From assembly GCF_024599795.1 (NCBI RefSeq), contig NZ_CP102246.1:3844001-3908000 (forward strand): 64,000 nucleotides of DNA. The letters are read 5' to 3'. Within the stretch, counting starts at the first letter, position 1. Each line of letters opens with the position of its first letter. Below the pieces are notes generated by a model that saw only the letters and a list, made by a program, of their open reading frames with translations, did no database searches and had not been told where the DNA came from. The position numbers were made by a program, and so were the translations under genes. The DNA is from Enterobacter cloacae complex sp. R_G8 (GTDB lineage Bacteria > Pseudomonadota > Gammaproteobacteria > Enterobacterales > Enterobacteriaceae). Shown piece by piece: positions 5,129-60,240 of the stretch.

Positions 5129-5151
5129 GGAGTTACCGCGGTGCCAACTGT

Positions 5152-5249
5152 GCCCGGCGGCGCTACGCTTACGCGGGCCTACGGTTCGTGTCGCTAATAA
5201 GCAGGTTGGCGGTTTTGTAGGCTGGGTAAGGCGTAGCCGCCACCCGGCA
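5152..5249. repeat. Pair of inverted REP-type elements (BIME)
   Basis: Two REP-like units lie in opposite orientation after the LysR gene. The first is at 5152-5182 (starts GCCCGGCGGCGCTACGC, ends CGGGCCTAC). The second is at 5216-5249 (starts TGTAGGCTGGGTAAGG, ends CCACCCGGCA). Such pairs form long stem-loops in transcripts and often mark operon ends. Here they also sit at the left edge of the accessory island. Confidence 0.7.
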
Positions 5250-5338
5250 ATGCCTTTCTGGAAGCCGCCTCGCAAACCTGCAAGCAACCTTATGTAATTC
5301 ATGAGCATCCCTTTTCATCCCTTCTTCGCGGTCGTAAA

Positions 5339-5541
5339 GTGCCTGCGTTGCGGCACATCCGTAACCGGGCGTAGGAACCCGTTTAACATGACTCGGCAAT
5401 TATTTTTGTCGCGACAGCGCTCATCCCGTTAAAATACGGTCGCGCTGGCGGAGCAACCGAAAGGTTGGCCGTTTTGTCATGTGCGGCATTCCTACCTCCG
5501 TCAGCGCTACCACCCATGAGCGTAGGAACTTATGTGGTGGT
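5339..5541 (+). ncRNA. C4/CI-like antisense RNA and target leader (phage P4/P1 immunity type)
   Basis: A 10-base direct repeat, GCGTAGGAAC, occurs at 5369-5378 and 5520-5529. Between the copies lies a branched RNA. A 12-bp outer stem pairs 5442-5453 with 5496-5507 (one G-U pair). It encloses a CAACC-GAAA-GGTTG hairpin (5454-5467) and a GCCG/CGGC hairpin (5468-5487). The unpaired strand that follows holds TTCCTAC (5489-5495), the exact complement of GTAGGAA in both repeats. The first repeat sits in the loop of a CGGG/CCCG hairpin (5366-5381); the second is enclosed by ACCACC/GGTGGT (5509-5514 and 5536-5541). This is the seqA-seqB-seqC logic of the P4 CI RNA and P1 C4 RNA, where the processed RNA binds its own leader and causes premature termination. 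The family assignment is inferred from structure. Confidence 0.6.
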
Positions 5542-5569
5542 CTGGATTTTTTTTGAAAAGGAATACTAC

Positions 5570-6025
5570 ATGACAACTATCCCTACCCTGACTTACGCAC
5601 TTTCTGAGGAAAGTGCTGTTCATCACCTTCTTCACCTGCAACTTCCCGATTCTGCGGATCTCTTCGAGCTGGCCGACGCCTGCACCGCTTATGTGAGCGT
5701 GCTGGTGGAAACTGATGACGCAGTGACGTTTGCCACGCTTTGTAAGCGATTGGTGGCCACACTGAAACGGCTGCGCGAGTGCTGTGACTCGGAACTTCCG
5801 CCGTATCTGGTTGAACAGTTGATCGCAGGGGAAAAGATTACTTCCTGCGTGCCGGACTGCTGGCAGGAAACGGTGTTGCAGGTGGATTATGCCGTAGCGT
5901 TAACGCTGGCGCTGATGGGCGGGACACTTCCTGCGAGCGTGGCGAAAGAACTCGTCGGGCTACTCCATGATATGGTTTGGTTGTTAGCGGAGTTTGTGAA
6001 GGAGCCGTATATAACGGCACATTGA
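5570..6025 (+). CDS. Unrecognised 151-residue protein downstream of the C4/CI-like leader
   Basis: The start ATG at 5570 follows AAGGAA at good spacing and lies 40 bp after the structured RNA leader. The protein is Leu-, Ala- and Val-rich and probably mostly helical, with acidic and Cys-containing segments (residues 60-100 include ECCDSELPPYLVEQLI). No signal peptide is seen; residues 105-125 (VDYAVALTLALMGGTLPASV) are hydrophobic but not a clear membrane anchor. I do not recognise the family. In P4 and P1, leaders of this kind control kil/eta or icd/ant genes that inhibit cell division or repressors. A comparable toxic or lysogeny-related role is possible but only by position. A 12-bp stem hairpin follows its stop. 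Confidence 0.6.
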   Translation: MTTIPTLTYALSEESAVHHLLHLQLPDSADLFELADACTAYVSVLVETDDAVTFATLCKRLVATLKRLRECCDSELPPYLVEQLIAGEKITSCVPDCWQETVLQVDYAVALTLALMGGTLPASVAKELVGLLHDMVWLLAEFVKEPYITAH

Positions 6026-6043
6026 GGCGGGTGATGGTAGGTC

Positions 6044-6073
6044 GGGGATCTGCTTGGTAAGAAGCAGATCCCC
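6044..6073 (+). terminator. Strong 12-bp hairpin after the 5570-6025 gene
   Basis: GGGGATCTGCTT at 6044-6055 pairs perfectly with AAGCAGATCCCC at 6062-6073 across a 6-base loop, starting 18 bp after the stop codon. No long T tract follows, so it may be a weak intrinsic terminator or an mRNA end stabiliser. Confidence 0.5.
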
Positions 6074-6316
6074 GGTCTTACGCAAAATTTAATGTTGTTT
6101 TTAAATGTCTGGTAAGAGCGATGAGCAGACATTGTCCCCACAGGATAACTGAACCTTTCTCTGGATATTCTCTAAAAGCGAATGGTTCGGATTACAGGGA
6201 TACTTGCAAAGGAAAGATATACTTTTTATCTAAACCAGATTTATTCAAAAAAAACGCTTAGAGACGAAAAATAGAACCCGTTACTTGGGCTCTATTCATT
6301 ATTTCTGACTAAATAC

Positions 6317-7747
6317 TTAATCATTGGTTATGGTGCATCTATATGGGAGTTCAACTTCTGTACCTTTGGGCAAGGATTTATTATATACAATATTCAACAA
6401 GCGAGATGGAATCATCGCCTTCTTGGATATCTCTTCTTTGATTTCATCTTCATCCAATCTGTCATTGAAATCATTAAAATCACTATTGGCTTTAAGACGA
6501 TTACGCCCATTAATATGCACTTCTGTTACTAAGAGTTTTCCGTCCAAAGTTACATCTGCAGTCACTGGTTGGTTTTTACCCGGTACTGCGAAGAATTTAT
6601 AGCTATAAGGCAATAGAACAGAAGAGATAAAATCAAAGCTGTCTTTATAAATTGCAAACTTCTCAAGATTGAAAACAACATTGAAAAAACTGTTTTTGAA
6701 TCTATCTCTTAGTTCACCGTCTGAATTAAAGAAAATTTCAAATATAATTCCATCTAAGAGATTTTTAATCTTATCTGCTTTAACACCTTTAGTTTTATCC
6801 TTAAATGCACTGATAAATTCACACGCCATATTTGAGTTTCCATCGGCGGCTTGGAGTATATTTCTACCCAAAACAAAAAGGCTATCGCTTCCAGCTTTGT
6901 TTATTTTATCGGGCGATATATCACTTATAGCTGGGTTTTGAGTGTACCAGTTCCTAATTTTGAGAGCTGTAATTGTTCTATGGCTCCACTTAGTTTCATC
7001 AAGAATGAAATTGCTATCTTTAACGGCAGAAGAACTATAGCTTGAAATTCTGGCAGCCACGCTTAAATTAAAATAAAACTCGCCAGATAAAGATGTATGC
7101 TCCCAAGAAGTCTGCTTTTGACGGGTTGTAGCCGCTAAGGTATTTCTTACCCTTTTAAACATGGCCTCGATAGGTACATCAGGAGTTTCTATGTGTTTTA
7201 ATAACGCCTCTGTGTAACTTCCATTACGTCCAGAACCGTCATCTGCAAATTGCCCTGGTGAGGTTGCATAAGCGATTAATGTACCTTTTGGCGCATAAAC
7301 AGGAGCTAAATCTCGTGGCACCCCCCTCCATTTTCTAATAAATGGATTATTTCTGCAGGCATCGAGAATTATAATACTGGTACGCGTGTCATTTCCTTTT
7401 GGCTCCATGCGAGTAAGAACCTCATTTAAACCTAAGGCCCCATGTTCGACATCGGCTTCATCATCAGCTACGGTGTCTTTTGCAATAAGGTAGTTTTTAC
7501 CATTAACTTCAGCGCCATGTCCTGCAAAGAAGAAAAGGGATATTTCGCCACCATCGTTTGAAGTTTTTTCGAGTTCTTTGATTGCAGCCTTCATTTCTCT
7601 AAGGGTGGCATTAATCAACTTGTTGACGGTGAAACCTCCTTTTATCAAAACTTCACTAATATCTTCTGCGTCGTTAGCAGGGTTTGGTAGGTTGTTACTG
7701 AATTCATAATCTGAATTACCTATAACAAGAGCGTTCAGTCGAGACAT
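6317..7747 (-). CDS. Caspase-like (peptidase C14) protein with unknown C-terminal domain
   Basis: A 476-residue protein whose first 225 residues form a caspase-like protease domain. It opens MSRLNALVIGNSDY. The catalytic His lies in FFFAGHGAE (His77) and the Cys in IIILDACRNN (Cys131), followed by GTLIAYATSPGQFADDG, which typifies bacterial metacaspase/orthocaspase domains. Residues from about 235 to the end are Lys-, Asn- and Phe-rich and match no domain I know; they may sense or deliver the protease. GGAGG precedes the ATG. The gene stands alone, next to a Septu-like pair, and is far more AT-rich than the flanking core genes, so it was probably acquired. Caspase-like proteases serve in several phage-defence systems by cleaving host proteins. 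A defence role here is inferred. Confidence 0.8.
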   Translation of the reverse strand: MSRLNALVIGNSDYEFSNNLPNPANDAEDISEVLIKGGFTVNKLINATLREMKAAIKELEKTSNDGGEISLFFFAGHGAEVNGKNYLIAKDTVADDEADVEHGALGLNEVLTRMEPKGNDTRTSIIILDACRNNPFIRKWRGVPRDLAPVYAPKGTLIAYATSPGQFADDGSGRNGSYTEALLKHIETPDVPIEAMFKRVRNTLAATTRQKQTSWEHTSLSGEFYFNLSVAARISSYSSSAVKDSNFILDETKWSHRTITALKIRNWYTQNPAISDISPDKINKAGSDSLFVLGRNILQAADGNSNMACEFISAFKDKTKGVKADKIKNLLDGIIFEIFFNSDGELRDRFKNSFFNVVFNLEKFAIYKDSFDFISSVLLPYSYKFFAVPGKNQPVTADVTLDGKLLVTEVHINGRNRLKANSDFNDFNDRLDEDEIKEEISKKAMIPSRLLNIVYNKSLPKGTEVELPYRCTITND

Positions 7748-8579: not shown

Positions 8580-10031
8580 ATGAATCCTGGCAGAAAATTT
8601 AAGCTCTACACAATAAAGAATGAAGATAAAGATGATATTTTCGTTAGCGACAAAACGAATCGATATTGTGATGATAATTTTTTCACTTTGATAACGGGAG
8701 TGAATGGATGTGGTAAGTCATCACTTCTAACAAAAGCAGTTAATTCCTTCATATTTCATGGTCGCAAAGATGATGTGCTAGTTGACAATAATTCAATTGA
8801 TACGCCTTCGCGAGTTATAGCCATATGTAATTCCCGGTATAACAGATTTCCATTAAGGGAAACTTTTTTAAGGAAAGGCGCCCAAAAAAATTCAGATTAT
8901 TATATTCAGGTAAATCATAATCAGGAAATTGGTGCAAGTGTTCTTTCGATAGTAAGCCAGTGCCTGAGAGAATTAATAAAGAAACCACTCAATAATCAAG
9001 TTGTAAGGCTAGATGATGTTCGTAGTGCTTATAAAATGATTGGCATAAATCCGTTTCTATTAATTAATCTAAAATTTAATGACGAAGCAAAAAAAGCGTA
9101 TGAGACTTTGCTTGATATACAACGGAGTAAGAAAGGGACGCGAATTTCAAGTGAATTAAACGATTATTACAAAAAATTTCTATCGGAAAATGAAAATCTA
9201 ATACTAAAACCTGATGTCATAAATATTCTTCAAGAATACGAAAATATTGTAAGATTACCACAACTGTATCTTGATATTGAAAAACGTAAAATAACATTCG
9301 ATGGAGCAACTAGTGAAAATGAATATAATATAAAGCAGGCTCTTCTATTAGGTCTAATCGTCCCAAGCGAAATACAGGTCCAAAGGACAAAGGAAAGCAG
9401 ATGGGTAAGTAATCATCATCTTAGCTCTGGTCAACAAACACTCTTAACGACGGCTCTTCTCTTAGATATTTTCACTATAAATAATAGTTTGATTTGTATT
9501 GATGAACCTGAGAATAGCCTTCATCCAGCCTGGCAATTGGATTTTATGAAATTTGTAGATCAGTTGTGCAAATGGAATAAAGGATGTCATTTTTTAATCG
9601 CAACTCATTCCCCTCAAATTATATCTGGGTTAAAAAGTGAAAATGGATGTATAGTCACCTTAAAAAATAATGATCACAGGATTTCAATTAAGAACAAATT
9701 TGATTCAGTTAACAGATTGGAAAATTCATTTAGTAACAAATCCCAAAGCTTTCATAATGTAAAAAATTACAGAGGACAGTCAGCTGACAGACAATTGGCT
9801 GAAATATTCGAAACACCTGGTTTTCGAAATGATTATGTTATTCATCGGTTATTAATGATTCTATCAAGGTTAGTTAAAGGTACAGGCTTGAACCGGAATG
9901 ATGAACCATTTATCGAAATGGTCAAGAAGTTTGTAAAATTCAATGATATTGATGAGTCTGACCCAGTGAATATCATTTATAATCAAATCAAAGGTGTTGT
10001 ATTTGCCAATAAAAAGGACTCTAAAAAGTGA
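8580..10031 (+). CDS. ptuA: AAA/ABC-type ATPase of a Septu-like (PtuA) defence module
   Basis: A 483-residue SMC/OLD-like ATPase. Walker A is GVNGCGKSS (residues 40-48), the ABC-like signature is LSSGQQTLL (281-289), Walker B is LICIDEPENSLHP (304-316) and the H-loop is ATHSP (341-345). A long, charged, helical insert of about 230 residues separates Walker A from the signature. AGAGG precedes the start. The stop overlaps the GTG start of an HNH nuclease gene (GTGA). This ATPase-HNH pairing is the hallmark of Septu (PtuA/PtuB), in which the ATPase forms a scaffold that holds and controls the nuclease. It is shorter than some PtuA proteins. No retron reverse transcriptase accompanies it, so it is read as a stand-alone Septu-like system. 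Confidence 0.72.
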   Translation: MNPGRKFKLYTIKNEDKDDIFVSDKTNRYCDDNFFTLITGVNGCGKSSLLTKAVNSFIFHGRKDDVLVDNNSIDTPSRVIAICNSRYNRFPLRETFLRKGAQKNSDYYIQVNHNQEIGASVLSIVSQCLRELIKKPLNNQVVRLDDVRSAYKMIGINPFLLINLKFNDEAKKAYETLLDIQRSKKGTRISSELNDYYKKFLSENENLILKPDVINILQEYENIVRLPQLYLDIEKRKITFDGATSENEYNIKQALLLGLIVPSEIQVQRTKESRWVSNHHLSSGQQTLLTTALLLDIFTINNSLICIDEPENSLHPAWQLDFMKFVDQLCKWNKGCHFLIATHSPQIISGLKSENGCIVTLKNNDHRISIKNKFDSVNRLENSFSNKSQSFHNVKNYRGQSADRQLAEIFETPGFRNDYVIHRLLMILSRLVKGTGLNRNDEPFIEMVKKFVKFNDIDESDPVNIIYNQIKGVVFANKKDSKK

Positions 10032-10723
10032 TCGTAAACCCTATTTCTTATTCTCAGCAAGTTAGAATTCACATTGATAAATATGATGGGAAAGATCATA
10101 CTTACTGGAATGTAACATGTGATGAAAATAAGGCAATCAGAAAGGAAATTAGAGAGTTCTATCGTACGGAGCAACGTTTTCACTGTGCATATTGTAACAG
10201 ATTACGACAAGACTTTAATGGTGCCCAGTGGGACATTGATCATATAATTCCCAAGCAAAGTCATCCTCAGTATCTTTACACCCCTAAAAATCTCACAGTC
10301 ACGTGTAAAGACTGTAATGGTAAAAAAGGGAAAGAAAATGTTCTTGTAGACCATGTTGATGCTACTCAATGCTTTCCTATATCAGGTGAAAGTTATGCAA
10401 TCATTCATCCTCACTTCGATGAATATTTAGACAATATTCGTTGTAGAACAACAGCTGATGGTAAGATCATTCATGAGCCCTTTACACCTAAAGGTATAAA
10501 AACATTCAATTTATGTGGACTGATAAGGTTCAGTGAAATGATAGCCGGTACTTCGGAAGTCATTGAAGAGACAGGTGAAAGCTTAGACCTTACTGATGGT
10601 ATAACCGAGGAACTTAGAGAAGCATTCGATAGACAAATCTCTGAATTTGACTATTTGTCAGATTCACAATTAGCTCAATTACTCAAAGGAAAATTATCTC
10701 AAATTACTGGAGTTATGGTATAA
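10028..10723 (+). CDS. ptuB: HNH endonuclease of a Septu-like (PtuB) module
   Basis: A 231-residue protein with a zinc-stabilised HNH fold in its first half: Cys53-x2-Cys56 (FHCAYC), the catalytic core WDIDHIIPK (Asp71-His72), Asn88 in TPKNLT and Cys93-x2-Cys96 (TCKDCNGKK). The C-terminal 120 residues are helical with no recognised domain and may contact the ATPase. Translation starts at GTG 10028, overlapping the ATPase stop, so the two products should be made in a fixed ratio. In characterised Septu systems the nuclease degrades nucleic acid during phage infection. That activity is inferred from family resemblance. Confidence 0.75.
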   Translation: MIVNPISYSQQVRIHIDKYDGKDHTYWNVTCDENKAIRKEIREFYRTEQRFHCAYCNRLRQDFNGAQWDIDHIIPKQSHPQYLYTPKNLTVTCKDCNGKKGKENVLVDHVDATQCFPISGESYAIIHPHFDEYLDNIRCRTTADGKIIHEPFTPKGIKTFNLCGLIRFSEMIAGTSEVIEETGESLDLTDGITEELREAFDRQISEFDYLSDSQLAQLLKGKLSQITGVMV

Positions 10724-12549: not shown

Positions 12550-12582
12550 GCAACGTCTGCTTCTGGCACAAAGCGGACGTTT
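12550..12582. repeat. 33-base imperfect palindromic repeat, copy 2
   Basis: The unit begins GCAACGTCTGCTTCTGG; its inner dyad pairs GTCTGCTT with AAGCGGAC. It matches the copy at 8266-8298 at 27 of 33 positions in the same orientation. A half-copy-like GAGCGGACGTTAAG occurs near 11578. Confidence 0.6.
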
Positions 12583-12674
12583 CTTTCACAGTCACCTCAT
12601 AAAGTGTTCGCACACATTAAATGAGCGCCTTCATCACGAGCATATGAACACTGCACTCCATCAATGTTTCTACA

Positions 12675-12721
12675 TTATCAACCCACCAACCATCACCTAT
12701 AATGTTTCCTGTCTGGAAACA
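12675..12721 (+). promoter_or_regulatory. higBA-type promoter with operator dyad
   Basis: A -35 box TTATCA (12675-12680) and a -10 box TATAAT (12698-12703) are separated by 17 bp. A 7-5-7 dyad, TGTTTCC-TGTCT-GGAAACA (12703-12721), starts at the last base of the -10 box. This is where a HigA-type antitoxin would bind to autoregulate the module. The genes it drives are broken. Confidence 0.6.
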
Positions 12722-12732
12722 AGGGGGCAAGG

Positions 12733-13043
12733 ATGCACGTAGTCTCAAGAGCGCCTTTCGACGCGGCCACCAGACAATTTCCAAATCAAGCACTCGCCCT
12801 GGACGATCTTTACCGGGTACTAAAAAAGGAGCACTACCCAACACCAGACGACATGCGAAAGCGCTTCCCCCGCCTAGACAGGATGAAATACCGGGAAAAA
12901 TGGTGGGTCATTGATATAGGTGCGGGCATTTAAAAGTGATGTTTTTTGCTGATTTTGATCGGGGAAAGATCTTTATCAAACACATCAGCACTCACGCAGA
13001 GTATGACAAACTCACGGACTTCTATCGGAGAACGAAAGAATGA
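12733..13043 (+). pseudogene. higB: higB-type toxin gene, frameshifted
   Basis: The first 63 codons read MHVVSRAPFDAATRQFPNQA and continue as a normal HigB-like mRNA interferase (RelE superfamily) to WWVIDIGAG. They then hit a stop at 12931-12933. The missing part resumes in another frame directly afterwards: KVMFFADFDRGKIFIKHIS, HAEYDKLTDFYRRTKE, ending at TGA 13041-13043. One base is missing near GGGCATTTAA at 12925-12935 (GGC-CAT-TTA would restore the frame). Most of the original coding sequence survives, so the inactivation is recent. The promoter and operator upstream look intact. Confidence 0.75.
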
Positions 13044-13206
13044 ACTATGCAGGAGCCAACTCACACAGAGCGATTTTGAGAATGAGATAGGCAAGAAATC
13101 TTTGGTGAGTCGAATCCTCAACGGACAGCGCACGTTAACGCTGGATCATATGCGCGCGCTGGCGAAGCGTTTTGGCGTGCCGGTGAGTGTATTTGTGGGG
13201 AAATGA
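13040..13206 (+). pseudogene. higA: higA-type antitoxin gene, internally decayed
   Basis: The ATG at 13040 overlaps the old higB stop (ATGA). It reads MNYAGANSHRAILRMR and then stops. The C-terminal helix-turn-helix half survives in another frame: KKSLVSRILNGQRTLTLDHM, followed by RALAKRFGVPVSVFVGK and a stop at 13204-13206. Normal HigA antitoxins of this group are about 130 residues, so an internal segment has been deleted with a frame change. Antitoxin function is almost certainly lost, which fits with the toxin also being broken. Confidence 0.65.
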
Positions 13207-13273
13207 TGAGGATGATTTTTTTATATTGAGAAAAAAGTGACGCAGCCAAGCTAGCGATATCGCGGCTAAAACC

Positions 13274-60091: not shown

Positions 60092-60164
60092 TTCCGACTA
60101 CCGGAATCGAACGAGTGACCTACGGATTACACGTCAGTTGCTCTACCTTCTGAGCGAAGTCAGC
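60092..60164 (-). pseudogene. Degenerate tRNA-Thr (UGU)-like sequence
   Basis: On the minus strand it reads GCTGACTTCGCTCAGAAGGT, with a D-arm, an ACTGA stem, a TGT anticodon and TTCGATTCCGGTAGTCGG, closely following E. coli thrU. Defects: residue 33 is G and not the universal T, there is a mismatch in the anticodon stem and another in the T stem, the first acceptor pair is lost, and the 3' end is ACCC in place of ACCA. It is unlikely to be a working tRNA. Confidence 0.7.
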
Positions 60165-60166
60165 GT

Positions 60167-60240
60167 TGGTCCGCCACCGGAGCCTCGAACCCCGTACTAC
60201 AACATCCTGGTTGTCGCTCTTCCCGATGAGCTAGTGGCGG
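60167..60240 (-). pseudogene. tRNA-like sequence with encoded CCA, 74 bases
   Basis: The acceptor CCGCCAC/GTGGCGG is fully paired and followed by ACCA. The D stem GCTC/GAGC and the T arm (CGGGG-TTCGAGG-CTCCG) are intact. The anticodon arm ACAAC-CAGGAT-GTTGT has a loop of 6 bases where 7 are needed and lacks T33, so one base has probably been lost. Original identity is not clear. Confidence 0.65.

Follow-up and report, generated by a model that had tools for sequence, protein, structure and literature searches.

Results

A C4 antisense RNA lies upstream of a gene of an unnamed family

The locus occupies approximately positions 5204-6130 of the window (the whole stretch of 64,000 nucleotides analysed here), limits that we set by BLASTN comparison with related loci. 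It contains the following features, all on the forward strand:

5335-5340, forward: putative -10 box TAAAGT (TATAGT at the corresponding place in P4), placed from c4-a1b1 alignments
5334-5385, forward: leader with the C4 target region, c4-a1b1-like (RF03163), from a covariance match below the cut-off
5366-5381, forward: hairpin A, CGGG (5366-5369) and CCCG (5378-5381) around the loop CGTAGGAA, with the 10-mer GCGTAGGAAC at 5369-5378; from the c4-a1b1 alignment
5432-5517, forward: C4 antisense RNA (RF01695), from an Rfam score above the gathering cut-off, fold and kept pairs
5489-5495, forward: antisense strand b, TTCCTAC, complementary to A and C; from sequence, fold and cross-locus comparison
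5509-5541, forward: hairpin C, ACCACC...GGTGGT with the 8-nt loop CGTAGGAA, holding the second target at 5520-5529; from the fold
5570-6025, forward: putatively controlled gene, 151 aa, unnamed family, predicted helical bundle; from homologues, AlphaFold2 and dN/dS
6043-6074, forward: 13-bp hairpin 3' of the gene, near the end of the conserved unit, read directly from the sequence

Judged by its sequence, 5432-5517 is a C4 antisense RNA. The covariance search that the initial annotation had suggested as a check came out positive, with a score of 56.3 bits against a gathering cut-off of 45 (E 3.5e-8; 64 kb searched with all Rfam families). The 86-nt strand folds at -41.5 kcal/mol (z -5.47; 0 of 200 shuffles as good) into the branched RNA drawn in that annotation, with a 12-bp stem (5442-5453/5496-5507), a GAAA-capped hairpin (5454-5467), a second hairpin of GCCGT/GCGGC (5468-5487) and an unpaired b strand. 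The self-targeting geometry was also found as claimed, with GCGTAGGAAC at 5369-5378 and 5520-5529 and TTCCTAC at 5489-5495, and the locus combines the marks of the C4 family: a score above the cut-off, a branched fold with exposed b, and a complement both upstream and downstream. A GGT at 5438 agrees with the expected RNase P cut site, and by the GGW rule, as given in the accessible part of PMC5320573, RNase P would putatively cut before it. Overall, the original observation is confirmed and its C4-type interpretation is supported.

The leader resembles known C4 target regions less closely. A relaxed search of 5150-5700 (551 nt) matched c4-a1b1 at 5334-5385 with 37.3 bits (E 7.3e-8), below the gathering cut-off of 46.7. 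The isrK family (RF01394) matched partially at 5347-5407, with 29.9 bits against a cut-off of 50 and with its 3' terminator hairpin skipped in the alignment, and on these grounds we rejected the leader as an isrK RNA; both sub-cut-off matches were counted as partial support only. A promoter scan did not report TAAAGT at 5335-5340, and the sole site that it listed (5406-5435) was no better than those in shuffled sequence. The first target had been described as lying in a hairpin loop. The c4-a1b1 covariance alignment includes this hairpin A, but the minimum-energy fold predicted for the bare strand lacks it and prefers a different hairpin; the stretch 5335-5390 alone folds with z -1.27 (22 of 200 shuffles as good). 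The second target, described as enclosed by ACCACC/GGTGGT, does sit in the 8-nt loop of hairpin C (z -2.31; 6 of 200 shuffles as good). The ACC at 5509-5511 is used by both the C4 stem and hairpin C, so the two folds are mutually exclusive there.

The position of the targets relative to the gene bears on how C4 might act. Target C sits 41-50 nt upstream of the ATG and target A about 190 nt upstream, and a putative ribosome-binding site (AAAGGAA) lies near 5560. Possibly, and with a minor share of our confidence, C4 acts on translation, with pairing at C and alternative folding of the leader setting ribosome access, as told for P1 C4 or for isrK-orf45-anrP of Gifsy-1; isrK works by alternative structures and translational coupling in the excerpted account of PMC4825925. 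The short distance from C to the ATG and the ACC common to the C4 stem and hairpin C would both fit such control, but C is clear of the putative ribosome-binding site, and A, which would then be unneeded, is retained in many copies that have no C4.

The complementarity between C4 and its targets is specific to each locus

To compare closely related copies, we aligned 46 distinct long-form copies that had been selected for having A and b. The named pairs were retained in 95.8% of cells, compared with 32.8-51.2% after sliding by one to three columns; the C4 helices were intact in 98.7-100% of cells, against 73.3% for hairpin C, and target C was exact in 38 copies. Compensatory changes occurred in 12 cells: GC to AU in the stem of three sequences, GC to AU in six sequences and CG to UA in one in the hairpin at 5454-5467, and two in hairpin C. 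The covariation score exceeded all 500 shuffles. The proportion of paired cells was barely above that in shuffles (95.8 versus 95.3%; 5 of 500 as high), and two of the five pair measures were not above shuffles, namely changes on both sides (227 of 500 as high) and further pair types (331 of 500 as high). Within this set the A-b pairs were invariant and had been preselected, so the evidence for pairing comes from the wider family.

The wider comparison covered 34 C4 loci, comprising the 30 best matches of a family scan (at most one per genome), three loci of the window's own genome and that of phage P4. All 34 carry a perfect 7-nt complement of their own strand within 180 nt upstream (A), and all 34 carry a 7- or 8-nt complement just downstream (C), with 12 different downstream 7-mers among them. 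When b strands were exchanged between loci of different specificity, a match to A was found in 60 of 996 cases and to C in 2 of 996. The compensatory changes in b and target that the initial annotation had named as a check are thus present at the level of the family (12 specificities, with 34 of 34 own matches against the swaps). These comparisons support pairing and indicate that the A-b-C complementarity is locus-specific.

The downstream gene belongs to a widespread family under purifying selection

The gene had been called unrecognised, and this description still applies. Its 151-aa product had no match above cut-off in Pfam, NCBIfam, PHROGs or PADLOC, and it showed no similarity to P4 ORF151 (BLASTP E 12) or to the P4 cI/eta ORF (hhalign probability 0.5%). 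A single-sequence search found 455 homologues and a profile search 1193; the taxa were named from the best 120 of each, and the hosts among the matches listed include Enterobacter, Salmonella, Escherichia, Klebsiella, Citrobacter, Serratia, Hafnia, Pantoea and others. AlphaFold2 predicts a helical bundle (pLDDT 81.6), for which no informative structural relatives were found. The gene is under purifying selection, with a median dN/dS of 0.16 (n=71 comparisons, many of them between paralogues and saturated at dS > 1); one locus in this set, L016, is out of register through an indel, and its ratio of 0.68 is not meaningful. The 13-bp hairpin behind the gene was not called as an intrinsic terminator by a terminator search.

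We also considered the Ash family (PF10554) and rejected it, as Pfam was negative for both the 151-aa and a 186-aa reading of the window protein. Long versions of distant relatives (P0137, P0143 and P0181) do match PF10554 at their N-terminal end, and it is because of this N-terminal extension that some of them are labelled 'ash family protein'; the matched part precedes the conserved protein and resembles translated C4, whereas the window protein is unmatched. A parallel case is seen in P4 (NC_001609, 8168-8584 and 7888-8175), where PF10554 matches residues 22-85 of the ORF that overlaps the CI RNA (E 4e-16), a part that is largely translated C4, and where P4 epsilon matches PF25738. PF10554 is given as the epsilon profile in the accessible portion of a P4 survey (PMC8628076), so that survey marker may detect C4-overlapping ORFs.

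Stand-alone units occur across the genus with and without C4

Of the 60 genomes of the genus, 57 contain relatives of the gene (E <= 0.001), in many cases at several places, and 51 contain the hairpin A 16-mer CGGGYGTAGGAACCCG. The window's genome has five places with a relative, three of them with an above-cut-off C4 directly upstream (the window copy, 2943906 and 1350368, the last with a different specificity, TTGGCAT); at 3840138 the copy lacks C4 and its A is degenerate, and the copy at 1980231 is truncated. Among the full-length distant copies in the matches listed, at least 42 of 50 are preceded on the same strand by a C4 no more than 250 nt away, a lower bound because weak C4 matches were not listed (the partial copies G013:2217488 and G038:1912192 and short fragments were excluded). 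In phage and plasmid records, an above-cut-off C4 lies upstream of four of five relatives (L091, L092, L093 and L095; L094 has none).

The leaders take two main forms. Among 90 copies with upstream DNA (60 fetched by place and 30 from the genus list), 49 are long, with A about 180-225 nt before the gene and room for C4, and 21 are short, with no C4 and an exact A hairpin, itself the selection criterion, 45-75 nt before the gene; the other 20 fall in neither class. Short-form leaders retain the 5' block, the leader hairpin and A, and at the site behind one LysR-type gene the window has the long form and other species the short one. The block that opens the unit (5204-5300), CTGGAAG.CGCCTCGCAA, is near-constant in long and short forms alike and may serve as a control site upstream; beside it, the stretch 5220-5254, which we take to be REP-like, gave a weak naRNA4 match (Rfam, E 0.16).

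The short forms raise the question of whether C4 works mainly in trans, silencing either C4-less copies that carry hairpin A or satellites of the TTCCTAC type that enter the cell. We regard this as improbable. It would give a role to the exact A hairpins of the 21 short-form copies (chosen, as stated, by that hairpin), and six of the 30 best family-scan C4 loci share the window's specificity (L038, L046, L050, L054, L056 and L059). On the other hand, a matching TTCCTACC strand occurs elsewhere in 11 of 22 genomes with an A-only copy, compared with 40 of 60 overall (counted by hand), so that no enrichment was seen, and we rejected C4 acting from elsewhere as the reason for A in short forms. In addition, strands flanked by TTCCTACCCCCG, putatively of satellite type, coexist with the chromosomal type in three of four genomes. 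Given that C4-less copies retain the leader and A even where the genome has no matching C4, A may have another role.

Much the same data bear on a further alternative, a unit that is left over from a P4-like satellite or prophage, is decaying and has no present function; we consider this quite unlikely. The P4-like architecture, the 21 C4-less copies, the degenerate and truncated copies in the window's own genome and the distant relatives that adjoin integrase or phage genes are all as a remnant would have them. Decay is at odds, however, with the median dN/dS of 0.16 (n=71, albeit with many paralogues of saturated dS), with relatives in 57 of 60 genomes of the genus and with the C4 stem and targets retained in the 46 long-form copies compared. 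From sequence comparison, the units in this genus are stand-alone chromosomal units, and the suggestion that the locus is domesticated fits both their wide retention and the purifying selection on the gene.

Defence genes adjoin some of the units

No satellite gene was found among eight window proteins scanned with Pfam. Behind the unit lie a caspase-like gene (6317-7747, reverse strand; Pfam Peptidase_C14) and a Septu-type PtuA/PtuB pair (8580-10031 and 10028-10723; PADLOC). Stretches matching window positions 12551-13246 start about 2.3 kb (L067) and about 0.5 kb (L069) behind the unit, so that positions 6.1-12.5 kb of the window behave as an insertion relative to these loci. Farther along the window, on the reverse strand at 60092-60240, a weak Rfam tRNA match (30.7 bits, 60164-60092) lies beside an unassigned tRNA reported by ARAGORN (60240-60167).

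With PADLOC (E <= 1e-20) we surveyed the 4 kb downstream of 22 related loci, 72 proteins in all, leaving out L068, which has almost no downstream DNA. The defence genes found included Tmn (L061), PtuA/PtuB (L062), Gabija GajA (L073) and RT-Toprim (L081), together with a second PtuA/PtuB-like pair, probably at L079, placed by BLASTP only. Downstream defence genes were thus present at 5 of 22 loci, compared with 0 of 23 upstream (Fisher p 0.02, in a comparison made post hoc). The only upstream PADLOC family at 1e-20 was 'mad3' (3 of 71 proteins), which we counted as zero, taking the three proteins to be ABC transporter ATPases of L063, L066 and L074; were they counted as defence, the contrast between the two sides would vanish. 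The data suggest, but do not prove, a one-sided defence hotspot at the units. Defence hotspots, Septu included, are known from P2- and P4-like elements of E. coli (PMC9122126, in the part available). Separately, in an E. coli plasmid record (L093, 103-3312), a gene whose 1069-aa product weakly matches retron and antiviral reverse-transcriptase families directly precedes an isrK, C4 and relative module.

One could imagine the unit as a host-owned tripwire, in which C4 silences a small effector, the A and C sites of an incoming satellite or phage titrate C4 and release the effector, and the units serve as anchors or triggers of defence islands. We give this very little credence; if true, it would explain the Tmn, the two Septu-type pairs, GajA and RT-Toprim downstream of 5 of 22 loci, and the Septu pair and caspase-like gene here.

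Discussion

C4/CI RNAs, known chiefly from phages and satellites, fill the role that a repressor protein would otherwise have. In phage P4, the CI/C4 RNA is the immunity switch, a self-targeting antisense RNA (seqA - CI/seqB - seqC), and in P1 the target genes of C4 are ant and icd. We think it highly probable that the locus described here is an immunity switch of the P4 type that has come to serve a chromosomal gene, keeping the 151-aa gene off through its own leader. The transcript would start near 5335, just before hairpin A, and extend across C4, hairpin C and the gene. A C4 RNA of about 75-80 nt would then be excised by RNase P and other nucleases, as the work on P1 and A. baumannii suggests, and its exposed TTCCTAC would pair with GTAGGAA in loops A and C of newly made transcripts, a pairing supported by the comparison across loci. 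From P4 we infer that this pairing causes premature termination; it would end or block the transcript before the gene is expressed, so that the gene is held off by its own leader. Expression would resume once C4 became limiting, for instance through an excess of targets. These analogies are drawn from the available parts of studies of P1, P4, Gifsy-1 and A. baumannii (PMC5320573, PMC10111431 and PMC4825925).

The retention of a chromosomal C4, often in several copies and together with an uncharacterised protein family of its own, suggests that the host has taken over the switch. The units also provide matched specificities on which RNA-RNA recognition could be tested, and they point to a small protein family that in places adjoins defence genes.

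Comparison with known systems

A close counterpart is the immunity region of P4, which matches C4, isrK and c4-a1b1 in the same order as the window. In P4, C4 and isrK exceed their cut-offs (74.9 and 60.8 bits) and c4-a1b1 falls below (44.1), whereas in the window only C4 exceeds it. Hairpin A is alike in the two (CGGGCGTgagAACCCG against CGGGCGTaggAACCCG; side by side, CGGGCGTGAGAACCCG in P4 and CGGGCGTAGGAACCCG in the window), and target C (GAGCGTGAGAACTC in P4, GAGCGTAGGAACTT in the window) shares the context GAGCGT..GAAC. Their specificities differ by a matched two-base change, GTGAGAA/TTCTCAC in P4 and GTAGGAA/TTCCTAC in the window. Unlike P4, which has a terminator hairpin behind A within its isrK match, the window showed no intrinsic terminator there.

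The C4 of P1 and P7, likened here by description, is an antisense RNA that undergoes processing and whose pairing loops vary (PMC5320573, in the part available). Gifsy-1 of Salmonella has an isrK - STnc1160/orf45 - anrP arrangement in which isrK, followed by a processed RNA, counts as a structural homologue of P4 SeqA, according to the accessible text of PMC4825925; similarly, distant relatives of the window protein lie behind isrK and C4 (L091, L092, L093 and L095), while the window's own isrK match stays below the cut-off (29.9 versus 50). In A. baumannii, group 1 C4-like sRNAs are multi-copy in the bacterial genome, highly expressed and apparently processed, and the portion of PMC5320573 available names no protein family paired with them, whereas the window C4 precedes an unnamed family.

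C4 RNAs in bacterial genomes are therefore already known (PMC2864571 and PMC5320573, as excerpted), and some long relatives of the protein already carry the 'ash family protein' label, so the proposal of a 'domesticated or new' locus must be softened in its second part. In the literature searched, which mostly excluded subscription papers, we recognised nothing on this gene family, its C4 control or an assay. As far as that literature goes, what is new is a C4 paired with a nameless protein family outside recognised satellites, a stand-alone repeated unit that occurs both with and without C4, and the position of this unit beside defence genes in some genomes.
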